From positions 1 to 64,000 of the forward strand of contig MWEK01000014.1 of the NCBI GenBank assembly GCA_002070955.1: 64,000 nucleotides of DNA. Direction: 5' to 3'. Both the position numbers and the translations under genes were made by a program. The notes beneath the pieces were generated by a model. It searched no databases. It was not told where the DNA came from and saw nothing but the letters and a program-made list of their open reading frames with translations. The DNA is from Planctomycetes bacterium ADurb.Bin069. GTDB taxonomy: Bacteria; Planctomycetota; UBA8108; UBA8890; UBA8898. Shown one piece after another: positions 13,912 through 59,016 of the stretch (the stretch's first letter is position 1; each line of letters begins with the position of its first letter).

Positions 13912-13939
13912 TTGGACTGAGAGCCCTAAAGGCTATAAT
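13912..13939 (+). promoter_or_regulatory. Promoter of the selenocysteine TlpA-like gene
   Basis: TTGGAC, 16-base spacer and a perfect TATAAT, ending 45 bases before the ATG at 13985. Confidence 0.6.
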
Positions 13940-13984
13940 GGGTTTAAGATTCGGAACACCTTGGGACAGGAGGTTTAGAGGCCC

Positions 13985-15001
13985 ATGAAAGGACGAAGCG
14001 CCGTCTTGGTCGTGAGCGGGCTGATCGCGTGGCAGATCGCCGCCGCGCCGCAGATCAGTTCGATCGGCACCCACATCTTCGGGCCGAAGCTGACGATGGA
14101 TGATCTCAAGGGCCACGTCGTCGTCTTCGAGAACTGGGGGAAAGCCTGAGGCCCCTGCATCGCGGCAATCCCGCACCTGGCCAGTTGGGCCAGGGAATTC
14201 GCCGGCCAAGGTCTTCTCATCATCGGTAACCACTGCCAGCCCGGCACGGAGCAGGAAATCCAGGCGGTGTGCCGGCAGAACCGCGTCAATTACACGATCG
14301 TCCAGGGCGGGCGCGTCTTGGAGGATAACTCGCGCGGCATTCCGCACATGTTCCTTTTCGACCACACGGGCAAGTGCGTCTTCGAGGGGCACCCGAGCGG
14401 CGCGGCCAACGCGGTGAAGACGACGATGGCCGCCGCCCCGCACCCGCTGTTGGCGGATCTGCCCCTCAAGAAGCTTGCCAAACTGGGGCAGGCGCTCAAG
14501 AGCGGTCAGCCCGTCGGCACCGTGCTCAAGCAGGCCAAGAGCAAGACGAACGCCTCGGATGCCGAGACCGCGGCCGAGGCGCAGGGCATCGTCGAGCGCT
14601 GCGCGGCCTATGGCGACAAGGTTATGAAGGAGGCGGAAGAACTGGCGGAGAGCGACCCCTACGAATGCTGCGCGCTCCTCGAGAAGATCAAGAAGGATTT
14701 CGCGGGCACGGACCAGGGCGCCGCCGCGGACAAAAAGCTTGCGGAGCGCAAGAGAGACAAGGCCTTCATGGCGCAGTACGATGCCGGAAAGATCTTCGCC
14801 GAAATCATGAAGGCCGGCGCCGAGCTCAAGGGCGTCGGAACGAAGCCGGTGGATCTCAGCGACAAGACTTGTCTCAAGGCCAATCGGCCCGCGGCGACGA
14901 AGATCGCCGCGGGCATCGCCGCGCTCAAGAAAAAGCACGCCGACACGAAGTATTGCGCCGAAGCGCTCCAGTACGCCAAGACGATCGGCCTCCAGGTGTA
15001 G
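13985..15001 (+). CDS. TlpA-like thioredoxin-fold selenoprotein (in-frame UGA read as selenocysteine)
   Basis: The frame opens at ATG 13985 and runs to TAG at 15001, interrupted only by a TGA at 14147-14149 (residue 55). The context is VVVFENWGKA-[TGA]-GPCIAAIPHL. In TlpA/ResA-type thioredoxin folds that position holds the first Cys of the CxPC redox pair, so the product would carry a U-G-P-C motif. Downstream sequence keeps the family pattern (EFAGQGLLIIGNHC, GIPHMFLFDHTGKCVFEG). The first ~20 residues look like a signal peptide. After about residue 150 comes a helical, lysine-rich C-terminal extension of unknown role. A 7-bp hairpin follows the TGA at the distance expected of a bacterial SECIS. 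Total length is 338 residues with Sec. The alternative is a nonsense mutation with a remnant starting at 14267, but chance placement at exactly this residue is unlikely. Confidence 0.8.
14147..14194 (+). promoter_or_regulatory. Candidate bacterial SECIS element (UGA plus hairpin)
   Basis: The UGA at 14147-14149 is followed 26 bases later by a perfect 7-bp stem (14176-14182 with 14188-14194) closed by the five-base loop AGTTG. A G lies at the second loop position. Known bacterial SECIS elements have a short apical loop with a G in its first two bases, about 16-37 bases after the UGA, and this hairpin fits. Confidence 0.6.
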
Positions 15002-15068: not shown

Positions 15069-15668
15069 ATGTCCATGGGCGGCGGAACGATTCGCCCCGG
15101 GGCGGGCGACGCATTGATCCTTGTCGACGTTCAGAAAGACTTCCTGCCCGGCGGCAGTCTGGCCGTGCCCCGCGGCGACGAAGTCGTGCCCGTGCTCAAC
15201 CGCTACCTTGCCGTCTTCCGCTCCCTGGCGCTCCCCGTGGTTGCCACGCGCGACTGGCACCCGCCCGATCACTGCTCCTTCAAGGCGCGGGGCGGGCCGT
15301 GGCCGCCGCACTGCGTCGCCGGCTCGGAAGGCGCGCGCTTCGCCGCCCTGCTGGACCTCCCCGCCGAGGGCCTGATCGTGTCGAAGGGGACGGCGCGGGA
15401 CAAGGAAGCCTACTCGGGTTTCGAGGGTACGGATCTGGACGCCTGGCTGAAGCGCGCGGGCGTCGCGCGGGTTTTTGTCGGCGGGCTGGCGACCGACTAC
15501 TGCGTGCTCAACAGCGTGCGCGATGCGCTCGGGCTCGGCTATGGGGTCTTTCTGCTCCGAGATGCGGCGCGCGCCGTGGAGGCCGCTCCCGGCGACGGCG
15601 AGCACGCCGTCCAGCGGATGCGCCGCCTCGGCGCGGCGACAATCGAATTCTCGGAGCTTGGCTCCTGA
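15069..15668 (+). CDS. pncA: Nicotinamidase
   Basis: A 199-residue isochorismatase-fold amidohydrolase. The catalytic triad is visible as D20 (ILVDVQKDF), K106 (IVSKGT) and C145 (ATDYCV). The metal site is formed by D62, H64 and H68 in TRDWHPPDH. It hydrolyses nicotinamide to nicotinate in NAD salvage. The next gene, nicotinate phosphoribosyltransferase, takes the product and starts 41 bases later, so the two form a salvage operon. A second ATG at 15075 is possible as a start. Confidence 0.94.
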   Translation: MSMGGGTIRPGAGDALILVDVQKDFLPGGSLAVPRGDEVVPVLNRYLAVFRSLALPVVATRDWHPPDHCSFKARGGPWPPHCVAGSEGARFAALLDLPAEGLIVSKGTARDKEAYSGFEGTDLDAWLKRAGVARVFVGGLATDYCVLNSVRDALGLGYGVFLLRDAARAVEAAPGDGEHAVQRMRRLGAATIEFSELGS

Positions 15669-15708
15669 TGCGCGCCGCCTTCCGGGTCGTCCCAAGGGCG
15701 GAAGATCG

Positions 15709-17055
15709 ATGAGCGCGCTGCTCACGGATCTCTACCAGTTCGCCATGCTGCAGGCGTACCACGACGGCGGGATGCGGGGGACGGCGGTGTTCGAGTTTTT
15801 CGTGCGCGCCCTGCCGGAGCGCCGCAACTTCCTCGTCGCGGCCGGGCTCCAGCAGGTTCTGGAGTACCTCGAGGGCCTGCGCTTCACCCCGGAGGAAACC
15901 GCCTGGCTTGCGGGCTGCGGGCGTTTCAAGAGGTCGTTCGTCGATTTCCTGGCCGCGCTGCGTTTCACGGGGGATGTAGCCGCCGTGCCTGAGGGCACCC
16001 CGTTCTTCGCGGACGAGCCGATCCTGCGCGTCGTCGCGCCGCTGCCCGAGGCGCAGCTCGTCGAGACGCGCCTCATCAACCTCTTGCAATTCCAGGTCAT
16101 GGTGGCTTCCAAGGCGGCGCGGGTCAGACTCGCCGCGCCGGGCAAGCTCCTCGTCGATTTCGGCCTGCGCCGGGCTCACGGGGCCGAGGCCGGCCTGTTC
16201 TCGGCGCGCGCGAGCTATCTGGCGGGGTTCGATGGCACCTCCAACGTGTTGGCCGGGCAGCGTTGGGAGATTCCGCTCTACGGCACCATGGCGCACTCCT
16301 ATGTGCAGGTCCACGGCAGCGAGTCCGAGGCCTTCGAGCGCTTCGCCCGTTCGCAACCGGCCGCCGCGACGGTCTTGCTCGACACCTACGACACCGAGGC
16401 GGCCGCGCGCAAGCTGGTCCGGCTGGCGCCCAAGCTTGCGCGCGAGGGGATCGCCGTGGCGGGGGTGCGCATCGACAGCGGCGATTTGGGAGAGCTCGCG
16501 CGCCGCGTGCGGCGCATCCTCGACGACGGCGGGTTGAGGGCCGTCAAGGTTTTCGCGAGCGGCGACTTGGACGAGCACCGCGTGCAGGCCCTCGTCGCGG
16601 GCGGGACGCCCATCGACGGCTTCGGCGTCGGCACGCGCATGAACACCTCGGCGGACGCGCCTTACCTGGAATGCGTCTACAAGCTCCAGGAGTACGACGG
16701 CCGGCCGCGGCGTAAACGATCCCAGGGCAAAGCCACGTGGCCGGGCCGCAAACAGGTGGTCCGCCGCTTCGACGGGCATGGCTTCATGGCGGGCGACGTC
16801 CTCACCACGGCGGACGCGGTCCCGCCGGGAGAAGGCCTCCTGCGGGAGGTGATGCGGAACGGCCGCCGGCTGGAAGCGCCGGAGCCCCTGGAAACCCTTC
16901 GCCGCCGGGCTCAAGACGGCTTGGCGCGCCTGCCCGAATCCTTGCGGAGCCTGTCGGCGGCGCCGCCCTATCCCGTGACGGTCGCGGACACGCTGCGCGC
17001 CTTGGCGGAGGAGGCCGACAGGCGCGCCGCCTCCTCCGAGGCAGAGGACGCTTGA
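15709..17055 (+). CDS. pncB: Nicotinate phosphoribosyltransferase
   Basis: A 448-residue protein that joins nicotinate and PRPP to give nicotinate mononucleotide. It begins LLTDLYQFAMLQAYHDGG, the canonical N-terminus of the family, and carries the conserved LLVDFGLRRAHG with the active-site histidine region, YLAGFDGTSNV, GVRIDSGDLGELAR and GFGVGTRMNTS. The frame extends upstream into pncA, but the ATG at 15709 puts the family N-terminus at the right place and has a GGAAG site. It follows pncA directly. Confidence 0.94.
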   Translation: MSALLTDLYQFAMLQAYHDGGMRGTAVFEFFVRALPERRNFLVAAGLQQVLEYLEGLRFTPEETAWLAGCGRFKRSFVDFLAALRFTGDVAAVPEGTPFFADEPILRVVAPLPEAQLVETRLINLLQFQVMVASKAARVRLAAPGKLLVDFGLRRAHGAEAGLFSARASYLAGFDGTSNVLAGQRWEIPLYGTMAHSYVQVHGSESEAFERFARSQPAAATVLLDTYDTEAAARKLVRLAPKLAREGIAVAGVRIDSGDLGELARRVRRILDDGGLRAVKVFASGDLDEHRVQALVAGGTPIDGFGVGTRMNTSADAPYLECVYKLQEYDGRPRRKRSQGKATWPGRKQVVRRFDGHGFMAGDVLTTADAVPPGEGLLREVMRNGRRLEAPEPLETLRRRAQDGLARLPESLRSLSAAPPYPVTVADTLRALAEEADRRAASSEAEDA

Positions 17056-47882: not shown

Positions 47883-48383
47883 ATGCTGAGCGAGAAGATA
47901 CTCAAGGCGTTGAATCGGCAGATGAACGCGGAGAGCGCCTCCGCGTACCTGTACATGGGGATGGCGGCGTGGCTCGACGCGCGCAACCTGCGCGGATGCG
48001 CGGCGTGGATGAAGGCCCAGGCGCACGAGGAGTTCCGCCACGCCATGAAGTTCTACGACTTCATCAACGAACGCGGCGGCCAGGCGGTGCTCGCCGCCAT
48101 CGAGGCGCCCCCCGCCGAGTGGAACTCGCCGCAGGCGGTGTTCGAGGGCGTGCGGGACCACGAGCGGAAGGTGACGCGGGGCATCAACGAGCTTGTCGAC
48201 CTGGCGGCCGCGGAGCGGGACCACGCCACGAGCGCGTTTCTGCAGTGGTTCGTGACGGAGCAGGTCGAGGAGGAGGCCAGCGCCGAGGACCTCGTTCACA
48301 AGATCGGCATGGTGGGGCAGCACCCCCACGGCCTGTATATGCTGGACCGCGAGCTCGGCAAGCGCAAGGTCGACGGAGACTGA
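47883..48383 (+). CDS. ftnA: Bacterial non-haem ferritin
   Basis: A 166-residue four-helix ferritin. Ferroxidase-site residues are visible in LNRQMNAESASAYLYMGMAAWLD, AQAHEEFRHAMKFYDFI and FLQWFVTEQVEEEAS. It stores iron and removes Fe2+ that would react with peroxide. It starts four bases after dfx. Confidence 0.94.
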   Translation: MLSEKILKALNRQMNAESASAYLYMGMAAWLDARNLRGCAAWMKAQAHEEFRHAMKFYDFINERGGQAVLAAIEAPPAEWNSPQAVFEGVRDHERKVTRGINELVDLAAAERDHATSAFLQWFVTEQVEEEASAEDLVHKIGMVGQHPHGLYMLDRELGKRKVDGD

Positions 48384-57681: not shown

Positions 57682-59016
57682 ATGAATATCATCTGCTGCG
57701 GGGCGGGCACGGTCGGCGTGCAAGCCGCCGAGGCGCTGGTCGCCGCCGGCCACAACGTCACGGTCATCGATCTGAAGGAGGAGCGCCTGCGCGCTCTCGG
57801 AGATCGGCTCGACGTCAAGACGTTCCACGGAAGCTGCGCCCACGCCGATGTCTTGGGCGAGGCGGGCGCCGGGCGCGCCGGCATGGTTCTCGCGAGCACG
57901 AACGCCGACGAGGTCAACCTGCTCACGGCGGCGGTGGGCAAGGCGCTCGGCGCCAAGATGACCGTGGCGCGCGTGCACGGGAGCGGCTTTTTCGAGCACC
58001 GCAACCTGGACTACCGGCGGCTCCTGGGGATCGACCACCTCATCTGCCCGGAGTACTCCACCGCCATGGCCATCGCGTCGTTCCTGCGGAACCCCGGCGC
58101 CATCTGCGTCGAGAGCTTCGCCGACAACAAGATCCACATGCAGCAGCTCGAGGCCGGCGCCTGCGCCGTCGGCGCGACGCTGGCCGAGCTGTCGCTGCCG
58201 CCCGGGCTGCGCCTGGCCGCCATCACCCGCCGCGGCCGCACGTTCCTCCCCAAGGCCGAAACGACCATCGAGTCGGGCGATGTCGTGACGCTGGTGGGCA
58301 ACACCGGCTTGTTCGCCGCCGGTCGCAAGCGGCTGGCGGGCGGCGCCCCGCGGCCGCAGAACGTGGTCATGATGGGCGGAAGCCCTATCGCCGTGTGGCT
58401 GTGCCGGGCGCTCGCCGAAGATGATTTCGAAATTCGCGTCTTCGAACAAGTCCGCGAGCGCGCGGAGAAGCTCGCCTCGCGCCTCGACGGCGTGACGATC
58501 ATCAACGCCGATCCCACCGATCCCGCCGTCTTCAAGGAGGAGCGCCTGGGCGCGGCCGACGTGTTCATCGGCCTTCTGGGCGACGACGAGCACAACATCC
58601 TCGCCTGCGCGTGGGCCAAGAACCGGGGCGTCCGGCAGACGGTCGCCGTCGTGCAGCGGGCGAACTACCTGTATCTTCTCGAACCCATCGGCATCGACCA
58701 TGCCGTAAGTCCGCGCCTCGCCGTTGTCAGGGAGATCGAGCGGCTGCTCGCCGCGGGGGCGTTGCGGCGCGCGGCCGCCCTGGCCGAGGGCAGCCTCGAC
58801 GTCTACGAGGTGCGTGTCGGCGCGGCCTGCGCCATCGCGGACAAGCCGCTCAAGGAGATCCAACTGGTGCCCGACATGGTGATCGCCGCCATCCAGCACG
58901 GCGCGGAGACCTTCGTTCCCGGCGCCGGCGACTGCGTGCGCGGCGGCGACCGCCTCCTCGTCGTGGGCGCGCGCGGCATCGAGCCGGCCCTGCAGCGCCT
59001 TTTTGCCGCGGAGTGA
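57682..59016 (+). CDS. trkA: Trk potassium uptake regulatory subunit TrkA
   Basis: A 444-residue cytosolic protein with two RCK units, each a Rossmann NAD(H)-binding part (MNIICCGAGTVGVQAAEAL; second PQNVVMMGGSPIAVWLCRAL) and a TrkA-C part (ALEAGACAVGATLAELSLPPG-like and EVRVGAACAIADKPLKEI). The second glycine-rich loop is GGSPIA, somewhat degenerate. It gates the TrkH channel in response to nucleotides. trkH follows four bases later. Confidence 0.94.
   Translation: MNIICCGAGTVGVQAAEALVAAGHNVTVIDLKEERLRALGDRLDVKTFHGSCAHADVLGEAGAGRAGMVLASTNADEVNLLTAAVGKALGAKMTVARVHGSGFFEHRNLDYRRLLGIDHLICPEYSTAMAIASFLRNPGAICVESFADNKIHMQQLEAGACAVGATLAELSLPPGLRLAAITRRGRTFLPKAETTIESGDVVTLVGNTGLFAAGRKRLAGGAPRPQNVVMMGGSPIAVWLCRALAEDDFEIRVFEQVRERAEKLASRLDGVTIINADPTDPAVFKEERLGAADVFIGLLGDDEHNILACAWAKNRGVRQTVAVVQRANYLYLLEPIGIDHAVSPRLAVVREIERLLAAGALRRAAALAEGSLDVYEVRVGAACAIADKPLKEIQLVPDMVIAAIQHGAETFVPGAGDCVRGGDRLLVVGARGIEPALQRLFAAE

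Follow-up and report, generated by a model that had tools for sequence, protein, structure and literature searches.

A predicted TlpA-like selenoprotein with a C-terminal helical domain in a Planctomycetes bacterium with two SelB factors

Overview

We analysed a window of 64,000 nt (contig MWEK01000014.1, positions 1 to 64,000) from Planctomycetes bacterium ADurb.Bin069, and found a gene whose product is almost certainly a selenoprotein, a TlpA/ResA-like thioredoxin that is probably exported and has selenocysteine at UGA codon 55. At the sequence level, this is supported by a frame that remains intact over the TGA, by the location of this TGA at the redox site, by the selenocysteine machinery of the genome, by TGA conservation in relatives from across the phylum and by a hairpin of the bacterial SECIS type. 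A selenoprotein interpretation had been proposed earlier from the letters of the window and a list of its open reading frames (hereafter, the sequence-only reading), and it is well supported by our results.

The reading frame is continuous over an in-frame TGA at the redox site

The gene occupies positions 13985-15001 of the forward strand, and its 338-codon frame, from the ATG at 13985 to the TAG at 14999-15001, contains a single internal stop, the TGA at 14147-14149 (codon 55), in the context ENWGKA-U-GPCIAAIPHL. The predicted selenocysteine 55 would be the first residue of a U-G-P-C motif, of which Cys58 (TGC, 14156-14158) is the putative resolving cysteine and is invariant in our family alignment (alignment A2). 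The sequence-only reading had located the TGA where the first redox residue of a WGKA-U-GPC motif is expected, with the frame and the family pattern running on past it, and this agrees with the open frame as far as the TAG and with a Pfam match that spans codon 55. It had also anticipated that an ordinary gene caller would start at 14267. Indeed, GTG 14267 is the first in-frame ATG, GTG or TTG past the TGA and opens a truncated ORF of 244 aa (14267-15001, forward strand), the expected output of a standard gene caller.

The gene is preceded by a ribosome-binding site, AGGAGG (13968-13973, forward strand), situated 11 nt 5' of the ATG, and GGAGGTT is also found 5' of the corresponding gene in the sister genome, Planctomycetes bacterium UBA4800. 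Reading by eye suggested a probable promoter on the same strand (13912-13939), composed of TTGGAC (13912-13917), a 16-nt spacer and TATAAT (13934-13939). It was absent from the list of a consensus scanner because the -35 match is weak; its core, GCTTGGA...GGCTATAATG, is retained in the sister genome despite divergent flanking DNA. The gene upstream is different in the sister genome. Downstream, two ORFs of the forward strand (15069-17055), judged by their translations alone, resemble a nicotinamidase (15069-15668) and a nicotinate phosphoribosyltransferase.

A thioredoxin domain joined to a C-terminal helical domain

The product is predicted to comprise a TlpA/ResA-like thioredoxin domain (residues ~24-150) and a C-terminal helical domain (~165-333). 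Its N-terminus, MKGRSAVLVVSGLIAWQIAAAP, reads as a positively charged stretch plus a hydrophobic segment, probably an export signal. The Pfam domain AhpC-TSA (PF00578) spans the redox motif with 27.9 bits (cutoff 26) and was matched by 22 of 22 aligned family members. Residues G43, W51, the redox pair 55/58, P120 and G129 are invariant in alignment A2. Pro120 (CCG, 14342-14344, forward strand), the conserved proline of a GIP(H) loop, is presumably the cis-Pro of the thioredoxin fold. An AlphaFold model (pLDDT 90.6, low for residues 1-17) showed a thioredoxin domain followed by an all-helical domain from around residue 165, and its top Foldseek match was ResA (E 7e-7, TM 0.76). The protein thus has the features of TlpA/ResA-like oxidoreductases (AhpC-TSA/Redoxin, cd02966), namely the fold with the family insertion, a UxxC motif and the conserved proline.

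According to the model, the closest named folds are those of ResA/TlpA/DsbE-type thiol-disulfide oxidoreductases, here joined to the C-terminal helical domain. ResA (Bacillus, PDB 1st9/4nmu) and TlpA/DsbE/CcmG share the fold and the CxxC-type redox site with the window protein, although they have Cys instead of Sec, lack the C-terminal helical domain and show only ~20% identity. The closest solved sequence is PDB 28db, a 161-aa 'Redoxin domain protein' (E 2e-21 over residues 26-146), which, unlike the window protein, is a Cys homologue with CPPC and has only the thioredoxin domain in its chain. The ResA subfamily model of NCBIfam, NF002854, scored 28.1 bits, below its curated cutoff of 170. 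The TxxU or UxxT motif of peroxiredoxin/glutathione peroxidase selenoproteins is absent, the motif being UGPC, and the GSHPx match was below its cutoff. No curated NCBIfam model reached its cutoff with the window protein, and for this reason the catalytic end of the protein and of its relatives goes missing in standard annotation.

The TGA is conserved among relatives across the phylum

In the sister genome, the protein is 81% identical and has a TGA at the same codon 55. Comparison of both genes 3' of the TGA yielded dN 0.10 and dS 0.40, indicating purifying selection. Homologues were found in 52 of 59 genomes of the phylum. We read 44 that contain an in-frame TGA, drawn from 36 genomes, and in every one it occupies the first position of UxxC. 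Their motifs are UGPC, UPPC, UPGC, UVGC and UIGC, and those of the Cys homologues CGPC, CPTC and CPPC; residue 55, whose alignment the sequence-only reading had suggested as a check, is therefore Sec (TGA) or Cys. The TGA is conserved in these relatives far beyond chance.

The distribution of TGA homologues followed that of the selenocysteine machinery: of 49 genomes in which SelB or tRNA-Sec exceeded the cutoff, 38 had such homologues, versus one of 10 with neither (Fisher p 1e-4, for related and hence non-independent genomes). The tRNA-Sec tally included strong matches only, since weaker, near-cutoff ones resemble the tRNA-Ser matches of the host. Conversely, 38 of the 39 TGA-bearing genomes have tRNA-Sec or SelB; for the single exception (G015), with neither above cutoff, the assembly is fragmented and 80% complete.

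A full-length paralogue in the host genome (C40:28419-29387, reverse strand) has lost both redox residues (VGFEGAER-TAAAIP) and is retained in the sister genome (its contig C154); it is perhaps a non-catalytic partner. A search of a plasmid collection returned only partial, weak matches to the TlpA domain.

A hairpin of the bacterial SECIS type follows the TGA

The TGA is followed by a candidate SECIS hairpin of 7 bp, CCUGGCC-AGUUG-GGCCAGG (14176-14194, forward strand), with arms CCTGGCC (14176-14182) and GGCCAGG (14188-14194) enclosing the loop AGTTG (14183-14187). The loop starts 34 nt past the UGA, leaving 33 nt between them, and its second base, followed by U, is a G (14184) placed 35 bases past the TGA. 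The hairpin is present in the minimum-free-energy fold of 14147-14210, and its loop, stem length and spacing match the published bacterial SECIS model (bSECIS, PMC13188914).

We evaluated how often chance would generate a hairpin of at least 7 bp, with a G among the first two loop bases, at +16 to +40. In the window, an equally good hairpin followed 21 of its 1334 TGA trinucleotides; among synonymous recodings of the gene, 1.6% contained one (14.8% under a looser score); the fold energy of the whole region was unexceptional (z -1.33). Because these TGAs and recodings do as well, the hairpin taken alone is weak to moderate evidence. The sequence-only reading was accurate about its 7 bp, its AGTTG loop and the G at 35 bases, but gave it slightly too much weight, considering the recodings that match it. 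The hairpin of E. coli fdhF lies further downstream and has another sequence than that of the window gene.

The relatives provided additional information. Among 39 distinct TGA homologues, the best hairpins of the model type exceeded those of synonymous recodings (combined p 3e-9, from relatives that are not phylogenetically independent). Three distant homologues (in genomes G052, G041 and G054) share this hairpin and its distance from the TGA, with 34 of 35 cells paired and one compensatory pair; stem covariation over five sequences amounted to this one pair (C-G to U-A) and did not exceed the shuffle control. Additionally, a hairpin of matching design, GGCGCA-GGUCU-UGCGCC, occurs in a TGA-containing SelD of the host genome (see below), at +33 as compared with +35.

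In families f2 and f4 (loci L023-L043), most TGA homologues have no hairpin of the usual model at +16 to +40, yet their genomes have the selenocysteine machinery, and the SECIS of these relatives may be of another class. The idea that the clade of SelB sets the position of the hairpin (+35 in one clade, +19 in the other) was rejected because genomes G041 and G029, each with one SelB above cutoff, have hairpins at both positions.

The host genome contains a complete set of selenocysteine genes

The sequence-only reading had proposed searching the genome for selenocysteine genes, and its assembly (4.55 Mb, 156 contigs, 88.5% complete) contains selA, selB, selC and selD, with tRNA-Sec, SelA, SelB and SelD all exceeding curated cutoffs. 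The tRNA-Sec, with anticodon UCA, is located at C2:30187-30278 (77.1 bits) and is directly followed by a first SelB (C2:30338 region, forward strand of L108:2674-4728). Contig C10 contains SelA (C10:90193; 519 bits, cutoff 268), a first SelD (C10:91756, forward strand of L107:5592-7247), whose C-terminus is extended by a fused carboxymuconolactone decarboxylase/AhpD-like domain bearing the motif CEPC, and a second SelB (C10:93319 region, forward strand of L107:7266-9272). The second SelD (C25:25340-26269, reverse strand; L109) has one in-frame TGA, in GUGSK, and is itself a selenoprotein. Profile scores were 280 and 252 bits for the two SelB (cutoff 242), and 348 and 345 bits for the two SelD (cutoff 125). 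A second tRNA-Sec was also sought in the host genome and discarded, with the other Rfam matches examined by ARAGORN being tRNA-Ser, -Leu, -Trp or -Gly types. The genome also contains RF2 (490 bits), and UGA is therefore also a normal stop elsewhere in it.

Alternative readings of the UGA

An in-frame TGA could also stem from an error in sequencing or assembly, or from a nonsense mutation that arose recently: TGA and TGC differ by one base and the assembly is fragmented and of metagenome type, so that the true codon might be TGC or the gene might be dead. Nevertheless, the same TGA is present in the sister genome, which was assembled separately, the codon recurs at the first UxxC position throughout the 36 genomes cited above, and purifying selection persists 3' of it, leaving this explanation next to no probability. 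In particular, TGC as the true codon at 14147-14149 is very unlikely because the independently assembled sister genome and dozens of other genomes have TGA. Were UGA read instead as an ordinary amino acid genome-wide, through a variant genetic code (table 4 or 25, for example), the local picture would be identical, with the frame open through the TGA. However, the genome has RF2 and the full selenocysteine machinery, the aligned residue in homologues is Cys rather than Trp or Gly, and other high-scoring TGA bridges in the window read as ordinary gene boundaries, such as the TrkA-like/TrkH-like junction at 59014, all of which makes a variant code scarcely credible.

Alternatively, the UGA could be a real stop, separating a short upstream peptide from an independent gene starting at GTG 14267, where an ORF of 244 aa does exist. 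Nonetheless, the thioredoxin fold needs both halves, the structural model and the Pfam match cross codon 55, the Cys homologues are continuous and no homologue among those read is split at this codon; we regard a real stop as very improbable. Insertion of selenocysteine at UGA 55 is by far the most probable reading.

We also screened the window for other TGA-bridged genes. The 273 candidates were ranked according to the GC3 on either side of the TGA, and no redox motif could be read in those that scored as high as the window gene. Of these, the two longest resemble ordinary gene junctions, at 59014 and at 48381, the latter before a rubrerythrin-like start.

With selenocysteine at UGA 55, SelB and Sec-tRNA-Sec would bind the hairpin and insert the residue, and the N-terminal hydrophobic segment would drive export of the protein. 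Outside the cytoplasm, U55 could attack disulfides or take electrons from a membrane thiol reductase, C58 would resolve U55 through a selenenylsulfide, and the C-terminal helical domain might contact a partner or substrate. The inferred function is periplasmic disulfide reduction.

Two divergent SelB factors with one tRNA-Sec

The two SelB of the host are only 31% identical and belong to different clades, and only one tRNA-Sec was found in the genome. Both keep the EF-Tu-like GTPase and the SelB winged-helix domains. In the SelB phylogeny, the C2 copy grouped with that of the sister genome and the C10 copy with the SelB of relative G046, the latter grouping being fully supported although its branch is long. 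The C10 copy lies in the order selA, selD, selB and a 4Fe-4S membrane protein gene, and the matching SelB of G046 in a cluster of tRNA-Sec, selA, selB and a 4Fe-4S membrane protein gene. This relative has two tRNA-Sec genes and two SelB (L115/L125, L121); a different anticodon on its second tRNA-Sec was ruled out, both being UCA. In the open-access literature searched, we found no description of a bacterium that has two SelB.

Relationship to known selenoproteins and significance

Published lists of selenoproteins include Prx-like thiol:disulfide oxidoreductases (PF00578 AhpC-TSA, UxxC/UxxU; for example, WP_010940744.1) and a 'thiol-disulfide isomerase-like protein' (cd02966, UxxC) (PMC9312934, PMC13188914). 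Since AhpC-TSA/TlpA-like UxxC selenoproteins are thus already listed, our protein belongs, by its sequence, to a known kind, the UxxC thiol:disulfide oxidoreductase selenoproteins. It shares with those listed the AhpC-TSA domain, the UxxC motif, the TlpA-like thioredoxin fold and the status of predicted selenoprotein. The window protein also has a probable N-terminal export segment and a helical domain of ~170 residues at its C-terminus. The TlpA disulfide reductase family selenoprotein MDE0950781.1 (cd02966; PMC13188914) likewise combines a TlpA-type thioredoxin fold with Sec, although its motif is UGC instead of UxxC. As in the system of E. coli fdhF, which requires a UGA, a downstream hairpin inside the coding region and SelB/SelA/SelC/SelD (PMC13188914), the window gene has its hairpin within the coding region and its genome SelA, SelB, SelC and SelD, but here with two SelB and two SelD. 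Selenoproteins of planctomycetes have been described earlier (PMC4807772), whereas no description of the two-domain group (TlpA-like plus C-terminal helical) was found in the open-access literature searched.

It is conceivable, if rather doubtful, both that these proteins constitute a selenoprotein subfamily of two domains (an exported TlpA-like one and a C-terminal helical one), so far uncatalogued (motifs UGPC/UPPC/UPGC/UVGC/UIGC) that is common in Planctomycetota and that selenocysteine insertion is possibly split between two divergent SelB with one tRNA-Sec. The two SelB genes offer an opportunity to examine whether selenocysteine insertion is shared out between two factors within a single organism.

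If UGA 55 is read as selenocysteine, ordinary annotation would therefore cut off the working end of the protein. Few selenoproteins are mentioned for uncultured Planctomycetota in the open-access literature searched, and dozens of relatives recode UGA in the same way as the window gene; extracytoplasmic redox chemistry that depends on selenium is probably widespread among these bacteria.
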